A model generated the notes under the pieces. That model was given only the letters and a program-made list of their open reading frames with translations, ran no database searches and was not told where the DNA came from. Both the position numbers and the translations under genes were made by a program. Of a stretch of 64,000 nt of DNA, positions 3-9,699 are shown piece by piece. Numbering within the stretch: position 1 is the stretch's first letter; the number at the start of each line of letters is the position of its first letter. Origin of the DNA: Halocalculus aciditolerans (GTDB lineage Archaea; Halobacteriota; Halobacteria; Halobacteriales; Halobacteriaceae); assembly GCF_014647475.1 (NCBI RefSeq), contig NZ_BMPG01000001.1, positions 496,001-560,000 on the forward strand, in the 5' to 3' direction.

Positions 3-1184
3 ATGAAACTCGCAATGATCGGGTTCGGCCAGGCGGGTGGGAAGATACTCGATAAGTTCATCGAGTACGACAAACGGACGAACGCCGGCATCGTTCGCTC
101 CGCTGTCGCCGTCAACACCGCTAAGGCCGACCTCATGGGCCTCGAACACGTCCCCGAATCGAACCGCGTCCTCATCGGGCAGTCCCGCGTCAAGGGCCAC
201 GGCGTCGGCGCGGACAACGAGCTCGGCGCGGAAATCGCCGAGGAAGACATCGACGAAGTCCAGGGGGCCATCGACAACATCCCCGTGCACGAAGTCGACG
301 CCTTCCTCGTTCTCGCGGGGCTCGGCGGCGGGACGGGGTCCGGCGGCTCACCGGTCGTCGCGAAACACCTCAAGCGCATCTACACCGAACCCGTCTACGG
401 GCTCGGCGTCCTCCCCGGCGGCGACGAGGGCGGCATCTACACGCTGAACGCCGCGCGCTCCTTCCAGACGTTCGTCCGCGAGGTCGACAACCTCCTCGTC
501 TTCGACAACGACGCCTGGCGGAAGACCGGCGAATCGGTCCAGGGCGGCTACGACGAGATCAACGAGGAGATCGTCACGCGCTTCGGCATCCTCTTCGGCG
601 CGGGCGAAGTCGACGAGGGCGGCGACGTCGCCGAATCCGTCGTCGACTCCTCGGAGATTATCAACACGCTCGCCGGGGGCGGCGTCTCCACCGTCGGCTA
701 CGCGGCCGAGACGGTCGAGAACGAGTCCTCGTCCGGCGGCCTCCTCTCGAAGTTCACGGGCGGCGGGCAGAAACAGCCCGAGGACACCGCGAACACGACG
801 AACCGAATCACGAGCCTCGTTCGGAAGGCGGCGCTCGGCCGCCTCACGCTCCCCTGTGAGATCGACGGCGCGGAGCGCGCGCTCCTCGTCACCGCGGGCC
901 CGCCCGCCTTCCTGAATCGGAAAGGCATCGAGCGCGGGCGGAAGTGGCTCGAGGAGCAGACCGGCTCGATGGAGGTCCGCGGCGGCGACTACCCCGTCCC
1001 CGGCTCGGACCGCGTCGCCGCCGTCGTGCTCCTCTCCGGCGTGACGAACGTCCCCCGCATCAAGGAGCTCCAGCAGATCGCGATCGAGGCGCAAGAGAAC
1101 ATCGACGAGATCCGCCAGGAGTCCGAAGATAACTTGCAGAACCTCGTCGAAGACGACGACGATGAACTTGAACCGCTCTTCTAA
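3..1184 (+). CDS. cetZ1: CetZ-family tubulin-like GTPase, CetZ1 type
   Basis: This is a cytoplasmic tubulin/FtsZ-superfamily GTPase that in haloarchaea controls cell shape and motility rather than division. The nucleotide-binding GQAGG loop is at residues 9-13 and the tubulin signature GLGGGTGSG at 106-114. The 393-residue length fits CetZ proteins, and the acidic, flexible tail ends in DDDDELEPLF. The ATG at 3 gives the usual MKLAMIGFGQAGG start, so the gene looks complete although it begins at the window edge; its promoter lies outside. The stop lies 23 bases inside the next gene. The neighbouring cofC and cofG resemble the setting I remember for Haloferax cetZ1 (recollection, not checked), so I call this the CetZ1 orthologue. 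The family is certain, the subtype likely. Confidence 0.93.
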   Translation: MKLAMIGFGQAGGKILDKFIEYDKRTNAGIVRSAVAVNTAKADLMGLEHVPESNRVLIGQSRVKGHGVGADNELGAEIAEEDIDEVQGAIDNIPVHEVDAFLVLAGLGGGTGSGGSPVVAKHLKRIYTEPVYGLGVLPGGDEGGIYTLNAARSFQTFVREVDNLLVFDNDAWRKTGESVQGGYDEINEEIVTRFGILFGAGEVDEGGDVAESVVDSSEIINTLAGGGVSTVGYAAETVENESSSGGLLSKFTGGGQKQPEDTANTTNRITSLVRKAALGRLTLPCEIDGAERALLVTAGPPAFLNRKGIERGRKWLEEQTGSMEVRGGDYPVPGSDRVAAVVLLSGVTNVPRIKELQQIAIEAQENIDEIRQESEDNLQNLVEDDDDELEPLF

Positions 1185-1953: not shown

Positions 1954-2556
1954 GTGCGAACCCTCGTCCCTTTCGGTCCCAGTAACCCGCTCACCCGCCT
2001 CGCTGCTGTTCTCTCACCCGCGGAGCGCCGGCAGTTCGCCGACGCGATGCTCGCCGACGTCCTCAGGACCGTCCGCGCGGCGGGCGGCGACCCGGTCGTG
2101 CTCGCCACCGAGCCGGTGGACGCGGACGCCCCGGTCGTCGTGGACGACCGCGACCTCTCGACGGCCGTGGAAGCCGCAATCGGCGGGGAGACGGCGGTCG
2201 TGATGGCGGACCTCGCGCTCGCCACGCCCGACGCGCTGGAGCGGCTGTACGAGGCGCGCGGCGACGTCGTCGTCGCGCCCGGCCGGGGCGGCGGGACGAA
2301 CGCGCTCGTCGTCCGCCACGACGGCTTCGAACTCGACTACCACGGCGCGTCCTACCGCGCCCACCGGGAGAACGCCGCGCGCGTCGGCGCAACGGTCGAG
2401 GAGGTCGACTCGCTCCGCCTCGGCACGGACATCGACGAGCCGGGGGACCTCGTCGACCTCCTCCTCCTCGGGGACGGACGCGCGGTCGACTGGCTGCGCG
2501 ACGCGGGCTTTCGGGTGCGGGAGGCGGACGGGCGCGCGGTCGCCGAACGGGAGTGA
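1954..2556 (+). CDS. cofC: 2-phospho-L-lactate guanylyltransferase (F420 biosynthesis)
   Basis: CofC uses GTP to activate 2-phospho-L-lactate to lactyl-2-diphospho-5'-guanosine, the side-chain donor for coenzyme F420. The 200-residue protein starts with the nucleotidyltransferase strand MRTLVPFGPSNPLTRLA and has the family loop APGRGGGTNAL in the middle. The C-terminal stretch RLGTDIDEPGDL matches the end of the CofC fold. The start is a GTG at 1954, three bases after the preceding stop, with no better ATG nearby. cofG and cofH lie within 8 kb, while cofD and cofE are not in the window. It is probably cotranscribed with the cetZ1 pair. Confidence 0.92.
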   Translation: MRTLVPFGPSNPLTRLAAVLSPAERRQFADAMLADVLRTVRAAGGDPVVLATEPVDADAPVVVDDRDLSTAVEAAIGGETAVVMADLALATPDALERLYEARGDVVVAPGRGGGTNALVVRHDGFELDYHGASYRAHRENAARVGATVEEVDSLRLGTDIDEPGDLVDLLLLGDGRAVDWLRDAGFRVREADGRAVAERE

Positions 2557-3227: not shown

Positions 3228-4925
3228 ATGGTCAATCAGGTCGAGAAACACAAACAGGAGAAACACCCCCTCGACGTCGTCGACGACGTCTACGAGTACG
3301 CCGAGGAGGGCCTCTCCTTCGACGAAATCGAGGAGCGCGCCGGGGACGGCGAGTGGGAGCGACTGAAGTGGGCCGGGATGTACGCCCACGGGAAACAGCG
3401 CGGCTACTTCATGATGCGGACGAAAGCGCCCGGCGGATACCTCTCCCCCGAGCAGGCGGAGGTCATCGGGGAGGTCGCCGACGAGTACGCTCGCGCCCCC
3501 GAAGAACACGGCGGCGAGACGCAGAACGAGCTCTGGGGCGACGCCTACCTCGACATCACGACCCGTCAGGACATCCAGAAACACTGGGTCGAAGTCGAGG
3601 ACGTCCCCGACATCTGGGAGCGGTATGATGAAGTCGGTCTCACGACGATTCAGGGCTGCGGGGACTCCGCGCGGAACGTCCTCGGCTGCCCGGCCGCCGG
3701 CCTCGACGACCACGAGTGCTTCGACGCGCAGCCGGTCATCGAGGCGGTGTCGGACTTCTTCACGAACAACCGCGAGTACGCGAACCTCCCGCGGAAGTTC
3801 AAGATGACCATCACGGGCTGCAAGCACGACTGCGCGCAGTCCCAGATTAACGACATCGGCATGACGCCCGCGCGGAAGACCGTGGACGGCGAGGACCTCT
3901 ACGGCTTCCACGTCCGCGTCGGCGGCGGGCTCTCCGACGGCCCGCGGATGGGCTCCGACCTCGACGTCTTCGTCCGCCCGGAGGACGCCGTCGAGTTCAC
4001 GCGCGCCGTCGCGCAGGCGTTCAAGGAGCTCGGGGACCGCGAGAACCGCGGCGTCTGTCGGATGCGCTACCTCGTCCAGCAGATGGGCGCGGAGAAGTTC
4101 GAGCAAGCGGTCCGCGACCGCTGCAGCGTCGACCTCCCCGCTCGGGGCACCGACCTGACCGAGGGCTACCAGGGCGACCACGTCGGCGTCCACGACCAGA
4201 AGCAGGAGGGCCTCCAGTACGTCGGGTTCAACGTTATCACTGGTCGGATGGGCGGCGACGAGTTCGCGCAGGCCGCCCGCGCCGCACGGAAGTACGGCAC
4301 GGAGGAGTCGTCGATTCGCCTCGCGACGGACCAGAACTTCCTCGTCACGCACATCCCCGAGGAGAATGTGGACGACCTCCTCGCGGAGGACTTCGCGCAG
4401 GACTACCAGCCGAACCCCGGCCCGTTCTCCCGGGGCGCGGTCGGCTGCACGGGCAACGAGTTCTGCAACTACGCCATCATCGAGACGAAGAAACGCACGA
4501 AGCAGTGGGCGCGCGAACTCGACGAGCGCATCGACACGCCGGACGACCTCGAAGTCGTCCGCATGCACATGTCGGGCTGCTCGGCGTCCTGCGCACAGCC
4601 CCAGATCGCGGACATCGGCTTCCGCGGCGAGACGGTGAAACTCGGCGCGGGCGACGGCGAGAACGACGATATCGTCGAGGGCATGGACTTCGGGCTCGGC
4701 GGCTCGCTGGGCTCGGACAACGAGTTCCTCGACTGGGTGGAGAACGCCGTCCCCGCCGACGCCGTGATTCCCGCGCTCGAACAGCTCTTCGACGCCTACG
4801 CGGACGAGCGCCTCGACGACGAGCGGTTCTACGAGTGGTGCCGGCGCGTCGACAACCAACACCTCCGCGACGTGATGCAGGAGGCCGACGCGCCCGTCTC
4901 CACGGGGGTGGCGCACGGTGACTGA
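3228..4925 (+). CDS. siroheme [4Fe-4S] nitrite/sulfite reductase
   Basis: This is a cytoplasmic six-electron reductase that converts nitrite to ammonia or sulfite to sulfide using siroheme and a 4Fe-4S cluster. The 565-residue protein shows the two-fold repeat of the family. The cluster and siroheme ligands are the CX5C and CX3C pairs: C407/C413 (in GCTGNEFC) and C451/C455 (in CSASC). The matching first-half motif TGCKHDCAQ is at 197-203. The stop overlaps the start of the FrhB-like gene by 8 bases (GTGACTGA), so the two proteins are probably made together. I cannot tell nitrite from sulfite by eye. The F420 context favours an F420H2-fed reductase like methanogen Fsr over a ferredoxin-dependent NirA; this is inference. 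Confidence 0.93.
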   Translation: MVNQVEKHKQEKHPLDVVDDVYEYAEEGLSFDEIEERAGDGEWERLKWAGMYAHGKQRGYFMMRTKAPGGYLSPEQAEVIGEVADEYARAPEEHGGETQNELWGDAYLDITTRQDIQKHWVEVEDVPDIWERYDEVGLTTIQGCGDSARNVLGCPAAGLDDHECFDAQPVIEAVSDFFTNNREYANLPRKFKMTITGCKHDCAQSQINDIGMTPARKTVDGEDLYGFHVRVGGGLSDGPRMGSDLDVFVRPEDAVEFTRAVAQAFKELGDRENRGVCRMRYLVQQMGAEKFEQAVRDRCSVDLPARGTDLTEGYQGDHVGVHDQKQEGLQYVGFNVITGRMGGDEFAQAARAARKYGTEESSIRLATDQNFLVTHIPEENVDDLLAEDFAQDYQPNPGPFSRGAVGCTGNEFCNYAIIETKKRTKQWARELDERIDTPDDLEVVRMHMSGCSASCAQPQIADIGFRGETVKLGAGDGENDDIVEGMDFGLGGSLGSDNEFLDWVENAVPADAVIPALEQLFDAYADERLDDERFYEWCRRVDNQHLRDVMQEADAPVSTGVAHGD

Positions 4926-6504
4926 TTCGAACCCGGACCGCCGTCAGCCCCGCGTCCCCGGAACGCCCGGAGGAGAGACGGAAGACGCGGATGCGGACGC
5001 CGACGCGGCCTCCGCCTCCGCCGAGCGCGGCGGCTCCTGCGGGAGCGACGCGTGCACCTGCGGCGCACAGGACACCTCGCGGCAAGCGGTCGCCGACGGC
5101 GGTGAGGCGTCACACGCCGAACGACGTCGGGTCGCGAGAGCCGACGGCGGGACGAAGCCGGCGAACGTCGACGACCAGGGGAGCCTGGGCGACCTCGAGT
5201 TCACGAAGCCCGCGGAGAACGCGAGTCAGGACGTCGACTCGCCGGACGCGGACCCGGCGTCACATCCGAACGTGCCCGAGGGCGTCGACCTCGACACGCC
5301 CGGGTACGGCATCCGCGAGGAGATGAACGACATCGAGACGCCGGACTCGAAGACGTGGTTCATGGAGCTCGACGAGGCGGTCATTCAGGAGGACCGCTGT
5401 ATCCAGTGCGGGACGTGCGTCGCCGCCTGCCCGTCGGACTCCATCGGCATCGGCGACGACGGGAAGCCGAAGCTCGTGAAGATGTGCACGGGCTGTTCGA
5501 TGTGTTGGGACTTCTGCCCGCGCGGCGGGATGCGCTACGAGCGCCAGTGGAAGATTACCGGCGGCGACGACAACGTCACGGGCGCTGGCGACCCCATCAC
5601 GGAGTTCTCCGCGAAAGTCGAGGAGGACTGGCGGGAGGGCGCACAGGACGGCGGCGTCGTCACGTCCATCCTCTCACACCTCCTCGAATCCGGCGAGATC
5701 GACGGCGCGCTCGTCGCGACCGAGTCGGAGGACGAGCCGTGGAAGGCGGAGTCCTTCCTCGCGACGAGTACGGAAGAGCTCATCGAGAACGCGGGGTCGT
5801 TCTACAACCAGACGATGGCGCTCGGGAACCTCGACCTCGACCAGTGGGCGGACAAACTCCCCGACAAGCCGCGCGACGAGCTGAGCCTCGCGGCCGTCGG
5901 GACGCCCTGTGAGATCGAGGGGATTCGCGCGCTCCAGGACTTCGACTGGGACCTCCAGGCCCAAGAGCAGGGGCTGCGCGCGGTCGACTACCGCATCTCC
6001 TTGATGTGCACGAAGAACTTCAACTACGAGCGCCTCATCGGCGAGCAGTTGGAGGAGAAACGCGGAATCAGCCCCGACGAAATCGGGAAGATGGACGTGC
6101 TCGACGGCGAGATGCGCGTCTACGACCACGAGATGAACGAGCTCGTGAACGAGGACGTCACGGAGTTCCACGACGCCACCCTGAAGGGGTGTGACGAGTG
6201 CGCGGACTTCACCGGCTACACGTCGGACATCACCGTCGGCTCCGTCGGTTCCTCAGACGAGTACTCCTCCGTCATCGTCCGCACGGAGCAGGGCGTGAAG
6301 GCGTGGGAGGCCGCGGAACCCGACCTCGACTACCACGACCTCGAGTCGCGGAAGGCCGTCGGGAAGCTCCAGTCCTGGGACAAGAAGAAGGCGTTCGAGT
6401 CGCTCGAACGCCCCTTCGACCCGGACGCGCCGCGGTTCATCGACTACGAGGACCACGCCGAACACTACGGCGTCGAGCTGAACCCCCACGACGCCGACCA
6501 CTAA
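4918..6504 (+). CDS. FrhB-like F420 oxidoreductase subunit with 2x[4Fe-4S] ferredoxin domain
   Basis: A 528-residue protein of the coenzyme F420 hydrogenase/dehydrogenase beta-subunit family, expected to take electrons from F420H2 through a flavin and iron-sulfur clusters. Two classical ferredoxin motifs are visible: C161-x2-C164-x2-C167-x3-C171 and C190-x2-C193-x2-C196-x3-C200. The FrhB domain (about 225-510) contains the conserved GTPCEIEGIRAL. Residues 1-140 are a low-complexity acidic extension with an unusual cysteine knot (C41, C46, C48). The GTG start at 4918 overlaps the reductase stop. Methanogen Fsr carries the same two modules in one chain, so this is probably the electron-input subunit for the upstream reductase. 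The partner assignment is inferred. Confidence 0.92.
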   Translation: MTDSNPDRRQPRVPGTPGGETEDADADADAASASAERGGSCGSDACTCGAQDTSRQAVADGGEASHAERRRVARADGGTKPANVDDQGSLGDLEFTKPAENASQDVDSPDADPASHPNVPEGVDLDTPGYGIREEMNDIETPDSKTWFMELDEAVIQEDRCIQCGTCVAACPSDSIGIGDDGKPKLVKMCTGCSMCWDFCPRGGMRYERQWKITGGDDNVTGAGDPITEFSAKVEEDWREGAQDGGVVTSILSHLLESGEIDGALVATESEDEPWKAESFLATSTEELIENAGSFYNQTMALGNLDLDQWADKLPDKPRDELSLAAVGTPCEIEGIRALQDFDWDLQAQEQGLRAVDYRISLMCTKNFNYERLIGEQLEEKRGISPDEIGKMDVLDGEMRVYDHEMNELVNEDVTEFHDATLKGCDECADFTGYTSDITVGSVGSSDEYSSVIVRTEQGVKAWEAAEPDLDYHDLESRKAVGKLQSWDKKKAFESLERPFDPDAPRFIDYEDHAEHYGVELNPHDADH

Positions 6505-6631: not shown

Positions 6632-7774
6632 ATGACGGGTGTGATTCCGGGAGTCGACGCCTACGACGTGGACGTCTCCGTGGACGACGCGGCCGTCGAG
6701 GCCGCGCTGGACGTGACGCCGAGCGACGTGTCGGCGGCGTCCGAACTCTCCTTCGCGCGGAACGTTTTCGTCCCGTTGACGACGGCGTGCCGCTACACCT
6801 GCACGTACTGTACGTACTACGACGCGCCCGGAGAGGCGTCGCTCCTCTCTCTGGAGGAGGTCCGCGACATCTGTGCGCGCGGCGCGGACGCGGGCTGTAC
6901 GGAGGCGCTCTTCACGTTCGGGGACGACCCCGACGACCGCTACACGGCGATTCATGCGCAGCTCGACGAGTGGGGGTACGACTCCATCCACGACTACCTC
7001 GCGGCGGCCTGCGAGGTCGCCCTCGACGAGGGGCTCCTCCCGCACTCGAACCCGGGCGACCAGACCTACGAGGAGATGGAGCGGGTCGCCGACCTGAACG
7101 CCTCGATGGGCGTGATGTTGGAGACGACCGCCGAAGTCCGCGCGCACAGCGGGGGCTCCCGCGGGAAGAACCCCGGCCAGCGACTCAACACCATCGCGAA
7201 CGCCGGGAAGCTCGACGTGCCCTTCACGACGGGAATTCTCGTCGGTATCGGCGAGGACTGGCGCGACCGAGCCGAGAGCCTGCTGGCGATTCGCGACCTC
7301 CACGAGCAGTACGGACACGTCCAGGAAGTCATCGTCCAGCCGGTGTCGAACAACGAGCGCTGGCAGGCGGGGAGCCCGAGCGTCGACGACTACCGGCGGA
7401 CCGTGGCGATGGCGCGCGACGTCCTCCCCGGGTCAGTGTCGGTGCAGTCGCCGCCGAACCTCGCACCGGTCAGAGAGGTCCTCGACTGCGGCGTGGACGA
7501 TTTGGGGGGCGTGTCCCCGGTCACGGACGACCACGTGAACCCGGACTACGCGTGGCCCGCGCTCCGCGAACTCGAAGATATCGCCGACGAGGCGGGCGTT
7601 CCTCTCGTCGAGCGCCTGCCGACCTACGAGCGGTTCCTCGACGGCGAGCGCTGGGTGAGCGAGCGGATTCGTCGGGAGCTGGACGCCGACTCCGCGGCCG
7701 GCGAGCGCTACCGCGCGGTGCGCCGCGGGGACTCGCTCGCGGGCGCGAGCGCGGACCGCTCAGAGGCCGAGTAG
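6632..7774 (+). CDS. cofG: 7,8-didemethyl-8-hydroxy-5-deazariboflavin synthase subunit CofG
   Basis: CofG is the radical SAM half of FO synthase; with CofH it joins tyrosine and a ribitylamino-uracil into FO, the chromophore of F420. The radical SAM cysteines form CX3CX2C at C53, C57 and C60 (TTACRYTCTYCTYY). The 380-residue length is normal for a stand-alone archaeal CofG. The ATG at 6632 is preceded by an 127-base gap holding only weak AT-rich spots. The 3' end overlaps the convergent hydrolase-like gene by 15 bases. cofH lies just beyond on the opposite strand, so the two synthase halves are close but not in one transcript. Confidence 0.96.
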   Translation: MTGVIPGVDAYDVDVSVDDAAVEAALDVTPSDVSAASELSFARNVFVPLTTACRYTCTYCTYYDAPGEASLLSLEEVRDICARGADAGCTEALFTFGDDPDDRYTAIHAQLDEWGYDSIHDYLAAACEVALDEGLLPHSNPGDQTYEEMERVADLNASMGVMLETTAEVRAHSGGSRGKNPGQRLNTIANAGKLDVPFTTGILVGIGEDWRDRAESLLAIRDLHEQYGHVQEVIVQPVSNNERWQAGSPSVDDYRRTVAMARDVLPGSVSVQSPPNLAPVREVLDCGVDDLGGVSPVTDDHVNPDYAWPALRELEDIADEAGVPLVERLPTYERFLDGERWVSERIRRELDADSAAGERYRAVRRGDSLAGASADRSEAE

Positions 7775-8320
7775 CCAGTCGGGCGACCACTCGACGAGTC
7801 TCTTTCTGAGCGCCGTGTAGACGACGGAGACCGCGAACCCAGCGAGGAGGAGATTTCTGACCCAGCCGTCGAAGGCGACGACGCCGGGGAGCGTCGCGAG
7901 CGCGCAGAGAACGAGGTCGCGCGGCGAGCCGTCGTAGGGGATGATTCGCCGGGGCGGGAGCCAGCGCTGGCCGAGGTGGTAGTAGACGCCGCGGTCGTCG
8001 TCTTCGAGCCACGGGCGGAGGCCGAGGCCGCCGCCGAAGACCTCCGTGAGGCAGTGGAGGGCGGCGGCGAGGAGGAAGAACGCGACGCCGACGGACGCCG
8101 TGCTGGGGGCGAGCGCGGCGTACGCGAGCGCGGCGACGGCGAGGAGCGGGTAGAACTCGGGGAAGTGCAGGGTTTTCCGGTGTTCGACGACGGCGACGTC
8201 GAGGTCGGGGAAGAGTCCGCCAGCGTAGGCTGCGAGCGCCGCGGCGGGCGCGAGCGACGGCTCGACGGGGAGGAGGACGAGCGCGGTGAGCACGCCGAGC
8301 GCGGCGTGCGTCGTCGCCAT
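7760..8320 (-). CDS. YdjM-like membrane protein (metal-dependent hydrolase family)
   Basis: A 186-residue integral membrane protein with the N-terminal pattern MATTHAALG, an early HxxLG-type histidine and the later GGLFPDLD motif, typical of the YdjM/LexA-regulated membrane-bound metal-dependent hydrolase family. About four to five hydrophobic helices alternate with short polar loops. No substrate is known for haloarchaeal members. The ATG (8318-8320) shares one base with the TGA of cofH (TGATG), so translation is coupled to cofH. A longer upstream reading would run into cofH in another frame and is not used. The 3' end overlaps the convergent cofG. Confidence 0.82.
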   Translation of the reverse strand: MATTHAALGVLTALVLLPVEPSLAPAAALAAYAGGLFPDLDVAVVEHRKTLHFPEFYPLLAVAALAYAALAPSTASVGVAFFLLAAALHCLTEVFGGGLGLRPWLEDDDRGVYYHLGQRWLPPRRIIPYDGSPRDLVLCALATLPGVVAFDGWVRNLLLAGFAVSVVYTALRKRLVEWSPDWLLGL

Positions 8321-9699
8321 CACGGCCGCGGTCCCGGCCGCTCGCTCGCGCCGAGGAGCGGCGTGCCGTCCGCTTTCGGGCCGAGCGTCGGCCCGTAAGA
8401 CGCCTCGCCGAGGTCGATGCGGCGGCGCTGCTCGTAGTCCGTCGAGCGCTCCACGGGCGTGCGGCCGATGGCCGAAATCATCTCGACGTAGTCGTCGAAG
8501 CTCCGGAACTCGCCGTAGCCGCCGCCCGCGCGCTTCGTGATCTCCTCGGAGAGGATGGTGCCCATGAAGTCGTCCGCGCCGCAGTTCAGGAGCTTGAGGC
8601 CGAACTCGTCGCCGTACTTCACCCAGGAGGACTGGATGTGCTCGACGTTGTCGAGGAAGAGCCGGGCGACGGCGACGAGGAGTTCGTCCTCGGCCTTCGA
8701 CGGCCCGCCGGAGACGACGCCCTGCTCGTAGAGCGGCGTCTGCTGGTGGATGAAGGAGAGCGGAACGAACTCCGTGATGTTCCCGGTCTCGTCCTGGAGG
8801 TCGCGCAGGCGTTTCAGATGTTTCACTCGGTGCATCTCGTTCTCGACGTGCCCGTACATCATCGTCGCCGTCATCGGCAGGCCGACAGAGGCGGCGGCGC
8901 GCATCGAGTCCATCCACTCCTGCGTCGTGATTTTCCCGGGGCAGATGACGTCGCGGACTTCGTCGACGAGAATCTCCGCGGCCGTCCCCGGGACGGTGTC
9001 GAGGCCAACGTCAGCGAGCTCGCGGTAGACGTGCTCGTAGTCCCAGTCGACGCCGCGCTGGGCGTGGTGGACTTCCTCCGGCGTCATCGAGTGGACGTGC
9101 ACGCCGTCGACGCTCATCGCCGAAATCTGCTCCTCGTACGTCGTCGGGTCCGTCTCGTAGGTCTCGGGCGGCTTGTAGTTCGCCGTCGGGTCGTCCGGGT
9201 CGAGCGCCTCCCTGTGCGCTTCGTTCAGCCCCATCGCGGGGTGGAGCCCGGAGACCGAACACACCTCGTAGATGCCGCGCTCGACGGCGTCGGCGACGAT
9301 CTCGCGCGACTCCGCCGGCGTCTTCGTGAACCCCGCGTGCGACTCCTCGTGGGACTTCTCGAACTGGTGGGCGGTGTCCTTGAAGTTACAGAAGAGACAG
9401 CCGGTGTTGCACGCCGTGGTGACGTTGTTGTTGAGGTTCGCGACGAACGTCACCTCGTCGCCGACGACGTCGGCTCGCCGCCGGTCCGCCGCCTCCAACA
9501 CGAGTTCTTTTCGCTCCCTGTCGATCCCTCGACTCTCCGTCCCGGTCGTGATGAGCTCCACGCCGTCGGCGACGGTGAGCCGGTCGCCCGCCCGCGCCTT
9601 CGCGAGCGCGTTCTCGAAGGACTGCTCGGACGTCGGGAGGTAGTCGAAATCGAACGAGGAGGCGTCGAGAGACGCCGCGCGCGCGTCGGGATCCGCCAT
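8320..9699 (-). CDS. cofH: 5-amino-6-(D-ribitylamino)uracil-L-tyrosine 4-hydroxyphenyl transferase CofH
   Basis: CofH is the second radical SAM half of FO synthase and transfers the hydroxybenzyl group from tyrosine onto the ribitylamino-uracil. The radical SAM motif CX3CX2C is at C97, C101 and C104 (TTACNTGCLFC). Family blocks SVSGLHPAMG and ATMMYGHVEN are visible. At 459 residues it is of usual length with a slightly long N terminus. The ATG at 9699 begins MADPDARAASLD. It is cotranscribed with the membrane hydrolase-like gene through a one-base stop/start overlap. Confidence 0.96.
   Translation of the reverse strand: MADPDARAASLDASSFDFDYLPTSEQSFENALAKARAGDRLTVADGVELITTGTESRGIDRERKELVLEAADRRRADVVGDEVTFVANLNNNVTTACNTGCLFCNFKDTAHQFEKSHEESHAGFTKTPAESREIVADAVERGIYEVCSVSGLHPAMGLNEAHREALDPDDPTANYKPPETYETDPTTYEEQISAMSVDGVHVHSMTPEEVHHAQRGVDWDYEHVYRELADVGLDTVPGTAAEILVDEVRDVICPGKITTQEWMDSMRAAASVGLPMTATMMYGHVENEMHRVKHLKRLRDLQDETGNITEFVPLSFIHQQTPLYEQGVVSGGPSKAEDELLVAVARLFLDNVEHIQSSWVKYGDEFGLKLLNCGADDFMGTILSEEITKRAGGGYGEFRSFDDYVEMISAIGRTPVERSTDYEQRRRIDLGEASYGPTLGPKADGTPLLGASERPGPRP

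Follow-up and report, generated by a model that had tools for sequence, protein, structure and literature searches.

Two overlapping genes of the haloarchaeon Halocalculus aciditolerans probably encode a two-subunit F420H2:sulfite oxidoreductase, the enzyme predicted earlier as 'aFsr'. They lie in a window of 64,000 nucleotides, by which we mean the whole stretch of DNA analysed, and both open reading frames are found where a first-pass annotation had read them (Table 1). Its claim of an 8-base overlap between a siroheme reductase gene and an FrhB-like gene, in a cluster with cofC, cofG and cofH, agrees with the coordinates and with the domain profiles: Pfam and NCBIfam give two NIR_SIR and several NIR_SIR_ferr matches for the first product, and FrhB_FdhB_N, FrhB_FdhB_C and two 4Fe-4S motifs for the second. 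The host genome counts one NIR_SIR protein and one FrhB_FdhB_C protein, and these are the window pair. Upstream of cofC, window positions 3-1184 hold an FtsZ/CetZ-like gene with a close relative in a Halarchaeum locus (L035).

Table 1. Features of the gene pair and its neighbours, in window coordinates
Feature	Position	Strand	Basis or conservation
cofC, F420 biosynthesis, neighbour	1954..2556	+	NCBIfam
Siroheme/[4Fe-4S] reductase, NirA/aSir type (aFsr-alpha), 565 aa	3228..4925	+	Domain matches, PDB matches, type A clade
Tyr52, signature position 1 (Phe in NasA-type enzymes)	3381..3383	+	Signature alignments
Cys144, signature position 2 (Gly in NasA-type enzymes)	3657..3659	+	Signature alignments
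Lys190-Phe-Lys192; Lys192 is signature position 3 (Asn in NasA-type and plant nitrite reductases)	3795..3803	+	Alignments
Reductase stretch	4446..4592	+	Invariant in all alignment rows
Reductase/FrhB gene overlap, 8 bases	4918..4925	+	ORF coordinates; relatives with similar overlaps
FrhB/Fsr-N-type putative F420H2 oxidase subunit (aFsr-beta), 528 aa, GTG start	4918..6504	+	Domains, PDB matches
Cys41/Cys46/Cys48 motif (C-x4-C-x-C), N-terminal extension	5038..5061	+	Conserved in 86-91% of type A
CX2CX2CX3C, first [4Fe-4S] motif of ferredoxin-like domain	5398..5430	+	100% in type A
CX2CX2CX3C, second [4Fe-4S] motif	5485..5517	+	100% in type A
PCX32CX60CX2C, counterpart of Fsr cluster 1, next to flavin	5908..6201	+	Type A alignment; Fsr motif in PMC10229431
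cofG, F420 biosynthesis, neighbour	6632..7774	+	NCBIfam
cofH, F420 biosynthesis, neighbour	8320..9699	-	NCBIfam

Among 394 genomes sampled from the class, 126, from 47 of 86 genera, match the FrhB_FdhB_C profile and 344 the NIR_SIR profile. Haloferax volcanii is without an FrhB match. The reductase gene stands immediately 5' of the FrhB gene, on the same strand, in 78 of 80 FrhB loci from about 65 haloarchaeal genomes, and in 79 of 80 named loci from a second sample that shares part of its species with the first. The first-pass annotation had named a lack of conserved adjacency across haloarchaea as one result that would refute its reading; the counts in both samples run the other way and uphold a two-gene unit found across the group. 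Many genomes show a similar overlap, 8 or 11 bases long, with the exact starts as chosen by our script. What surrounds the pair varies by lineage: it lies among housekeeping genes such as SRP54- and prefoldin-like ones, in a cof region, or on plasmids, as in the cultured species Haloferax mediterranei (E6P09_RS15580/15575 on pHME505). Its commonest neighbours, named by eye from sequence, are SRP54-, prefoldin-, L31e- and eIF6-like genes, and none of the recurrent neighbours in the fetched loci is a sulfur or nitrate gene in operon with the pair.

Three FrhB copies (L055, L087 and L222) have no reductase nearby. These lone genes (L055, L087/L170, L222) share 66-74% identity with the window FrhB; the genomes of L055 and L087 each contain a complete pair elsewhere, and L170 is the lone copy on Halopiger xanaduensis pHALXA01, with no listed gene at it. 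Beyond Halobacteria, the same phylum yielded 20 NirA-like genes, some of them on short contigs, and no FrhB neighbour was found at any. Open frames of 905 aa in three genomes, considered as candidate reductase-FrhB fusions, proved to be upstream extensions of the frame. One FrhB-adjacent reductase frame (L097:6993-8153, genome G324) is only 386 aa long, possibly through a sequencing error or gene decay, and Halorubrum laminariae shows two FrhB matches of equal identity about 41 kb apart on one contig (L238 and L239), perhaps a recent duplication.

The pairs fall into two classes. In type A, to which the window pair belongs, the reductase is about 565 aa long and shares 69-85% identity with that of the window, and the FrhB subunit carries a long extension. 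In type B two rhodanese domains precede the siroheme part, which brings the reductase to about 800 aa, and the FrhB subunit is shorter, at about 415 aa. A tree of 83 reductases (quick search, SH-aLRT support) makes the FrhB-partnered enzymes, A and B, sister groups (99%) and sets the two together apart from the unlinked enzymes (clade U) and from another clade, marked by Asn at position 192, in which two members adjoin NasA. The FrhB subunits also split A from B, with two orphan copies on the A side. Type B pairs were seen on Natronococcus occultus plasmid 2 (L165:5263-8901) and at 21 loci from genomes; on that plasmid nosZ and nosD directly follow the pair (L165:7663-11079), and neither recurs as a neighbour at the other type B loci. 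The cysteine of the second rhodanese domain is conserved in 14 of 14 sequences, and such a domain on the sister class ties the clade to sulfur. A single type B complex might convert thiosulfate or sulfane sulfur to sulfide, and the type B rhodanese domains would place the steps from thiosulfate to sulfite and from sulfite to sulfide in one chain. Rhodanese-NirA fusions in Halobacteria are listed in a fusion survey (PMC11237513), the portion of which available to us makes no mention of an FrhB link.

Against the PDB, the window reductase best matches plant nitrite reductase (E ~1e-84), followed by M. tuberculosis NirA (2e-68), whereas Fsr aligns over one part only (5e-11); NCBIfam PRK09566 scores 405 bits, below its curated cut-off of 594 bits. 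The protein is a double-repeat reductase of the NirA/assimilatory (aSir) type without an inserted ferredoxin domain. The first-pass annotation saw both modules joined in Fsr; this is not supported for the reductase, and the FrhB module alone is closely shared. The anion-binding residues Arg113, Arg149, Lys190 and Lys192 and the four cluster cysteines are invariant in type A, and Tyr52, Cys144 and Lys192 are found in 59 of 59 type A rows and in all 77 readable named rows. At these three positions the Asn clade has Phe, Gly and Asn (8 of 8 rows), as does tobacco nitrite reductase. U enzymes carry Tyr/Cys/Lys in 40 of 40 cases, and type B keeps Tyr and Lys, with the signature Cys in only 11 of 23. 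M. tuberculosis NirA is described as a sulfite reductase with a Cys-Tyr bond. Its Cys and Lys (PDB 1zj8) align with Cys144 and Lys192 of the window, and the same alignment excludes Cys154 as the cross-link residue. Its cross-linked tyrosine is presumably the counterpart of Tyr52. Sulfite reductases commonly reduce nitrite as well. Moreover, the Fsr of M. thermolithotrophicus prefers nitrite (PMC10229431), which, with the former point, tempers the preference for sulfite that the signature suggests. Of the earlier designation 'sulfite/nitrite reductase', the siroheme reductase stands, and the substrate is narrowed by an active-site signature that is that of sulfite reductases.

The reading of the second gene as an F420 module, of the FrhB/Fsr-N type, is supported by its Pfam domains and by its best PDB matches, which are Fsr chains (E ~1e-41). 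Twelve cluster-ligand cysteines are fully conserved in the 57 rows of type A, eight of them in the two ferredoxin motifs and four in PCX32CX60CX2C, the counterpart of the Fsr cluster 1 motif PCX40CX54CX2C (PMC10229431); by comparison with the Fsr of that paper, the ligands for Fsr clusters 1-3 are all present in the window subunit. The N-terminal extension of type A, missing from the shorter type B subunits, includes a well-conserved stretch ahead of the first cluster (ANVD..G.LGD.EFT.PAE..SQDV, window ~5160-5360). It is presumably disordered and may possibly serve as a docking arm or a metal site. An AlphaFold model of the subunit reached a mean pLDDT of 48, too poor for use.

On our reading, F420H2 would pass a hydride to the flavin of the FrhB-type subunit. 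Electrons would then run from the flavin-proximal [4Fe-4S] cluster by way of the pair of ferredoxin-like [4Fe-4S] clusters to the reductase, whose siroheme-[4Fe-4S] centre would carry out the six-electron reduction of sulfite to sulfide. Such a complex of the two proteins would let the ferredoxin-like domain of the FrhB subunit replace both the external ferredoxin of the plant enzymes and the inserted ferredoxin domain of Fsr. Clusters 4 and 5 of Fsr reside in that insert in the reductase, and maize ferredoxin docks at the same place on its sulfite reductase (PMC10229431); by analogy, the ferredoxin domain of the FrhB subunit may dock at this site of the siroheme reductase.

Is F420 the electron donor? 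The family, the likeness to Fsr and the cof linkage suggest so. The cof genes stand beside the pair in 8 of 80 named loci (Halarchaeum, Halegenticoccus, Halogranum, Salinigranum and one MAG), so that this neighbourhood is real yet local, not general. Its occurrence in two families and in more than one gene order speaks for F420; the order is cofC-reductase-FrhB-cofG in the window, and cofC-cofG-reductase-FrhB in Halarchaeum and some Haloferacaceae (L210, L214, L257), cofG preceding the pair in all four named genera and following it in the window. A reductase fed by ferredoxin, with an FrhB partner that either depends on ferredoxin too or delivers its electrons elsewhere, and with no part for F420, would suit the three lone FrhB copies and the many pairs, the majority, that lie away from cof genes. 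FrhB-family relatives in phototrophs are ferredoxin-dependent and the family has a match in Synechococcus elongatus, so membership alone is no proof of F420 use. We nevertheless hold this reading to be rather improbable in view of the near-perfect linkage and co-inheritance of the two genes, of Fsr being the closest solved relative of the FrhB subunit, and of the cof linkage in two families. It is still harder to believe that the two genes are chance or operon-convenience neighbours of unrelated function. Haloarchaeal genes often lie close together or overlap, but this pair persists in wholly different surroundings, from the SRP54/prefoldin region to the cof region and plasmids, and the adjacency counts in both samples strongly disfavour this very remote explanation: the pairing is beyond chance.

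The substrate deserves a separate discussion. An F420H2-fed, ammonium-forming nitrite reductase, assimilatory or detoxifying, would accord with the RefSeq name 'ferredoxin--nitrite reductase' in named records and with plant nitrite reductases as the closest PDB relatives of the reductase. An Fsr homologue of ANME-2c is an F420H2 nitrite reductase (PMC9295563), and Natrinema sp. J7-2, which lacks nas, grows on nitrite and has two NirA-type genes (PMC3402447). The sulfite reading is also weakened by the source of sulfite, as the host lacks a sulfate-assimilation pathway: no ATP sulfurylase was found in its genome, and the sulfate-activation route was absent in the haloarchaea sequenced at the time of the Natrinema paper (PMC3402447). 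Nitrite nonetheless appears to us an unlikely main substrate, since the signature differs from Phe/Gly/Asn at all three positions, the recurrent neighbours of the pair are non-nitrate genes, and the host has no orthologue-level NasA (best match 32-38%, against 61% between two haloarchaeal NasA). Furthermore, of the 118 genomes with type A, 39 carry a NasD-scoring gene as well but lack the U-type enzyme. In 19 others both are missing. With reductase classes set by an E-value gap and kinship uncorrected, the U enzyme is rarer in genomes with FrhB (67 of 126) than in those without (201 of 268; p 3e-5), which, together with the type A genomes devoid of U, would be consistent with A and U standing in for one another as enzymes of the sulfite type. 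Neither NasD nor a U enzyme was found in the host genome. The distribution of PAPS reductase by PF01507 was uninformative, 389 of 394 genomes matching, mostly weakly.

If sulfite is the main substrate of the F420H2-dependent pair, as we consider probable, it may be reached by a route cited in PMC3402447, in which a sulfurtransferase converts thiosulfate to sulfite and NP4004A, a proposed sulfite reductase, converts sulfite to sulfide; the host genome encodes several rhodanese domains. It is tempting to hypothesize, although we hold it only tentatively, that in haloarchaea without sulfate activation the F420H2-fed enzyme is the route from sulfite to sulfide, the rhodanese-bearing type B starting from thiosulfate or sulfane sulfur. 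Sulfur metabolism in haloarchaea would then be a major task of coenzyme F420. According to a 2021 review (PMC8305020), a single F420-dependent reaction has been reported from halophilic archaea and the importance of the cofactor to them is enigmatic, and the Natrinema paper states that little is known of haloarchaeal hydrogen sulfide formation (PMC3402447); a pair working as we read it, with its FrhB subunit in about a third of the sampled haloarchaeal genomes, would answer part of both questions with one enzyme. The best reading is also that the window reductase is misannotated as a ferredoxin-nitrite reductase, a RefSeq name that would mislead pathway reconstructions.

The two-gene idea is not new. 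A haloarchaeal enzyme of two genes was proposed in 2012 as 'aFsr', a putative F420H2-dependent assimilatory-type sulfite reductase (Susanti and Mukhopadhyay 2012, PMC3448663), and aFsr-beta was included in an alignment by Heryakusuma 2022; we found no experimental test of the prediction in the open-licence literature, and subscription journals might hold one. The window pair likewise joins an aSir-type alpha to an Fsr-N-type beta (FrhB plus two N-terminal [4Fe-4S] motifs) in linked genes, and nothing sets it apart from aFsr save its place between cofC and cofG. To judge by their locus numbers, NP_4004A/NP_4006A of Natronomonas pharaonis are presumably the same kind of pair; NP_4006A was described as a 27% relative of the Fsr MJ0870, too distant to assume the same function (PMC8305020). 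Haloarchaeal NasD belongs to the same family, with the same cofactor set by its ligands and ~39-43% identity to the window reductase, but forms a separate, NasA-linked clade with Phe/Gly/Asn. No FrhB partner accompanies it in the two NasA-linked loci examined, and neither NasA nor a nitrate transporter is among the recurrent neighbours of the window-type pair. M. tuberculosis NirA shares the double repeat and the Cys and Lys at corresponding positions, but is bacterial and named ferredoxin-dependent in its PDB record. Fsr (PDB 7np8, 7npa) resembles the pair in its F420H2-oxidase module, two ferredoxin-type clusters, flavin-proximal cluster and siroheme acceptor. It is, however, a single chain with the F420 module first and a Dsr-type, single-repeat reductase holding an inserted two-cluster ferredoxin domain, whereas the window has two chains, the reductase gene first, a double repeat, no insert and a long N-terminal FrhB extension. 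The reversed order and separate chains noted in the first-pass annotation are confirmed by the ORF coordinates, with no fusion in the fetched loci. New here are the near-complete linkage of the pair in haloarchaea, its two classes, one of them rhodanese-bearing, the three-residue signature pointing to sulfite, the cof linkage in two families, and a reductase that is not Fsr's own module.
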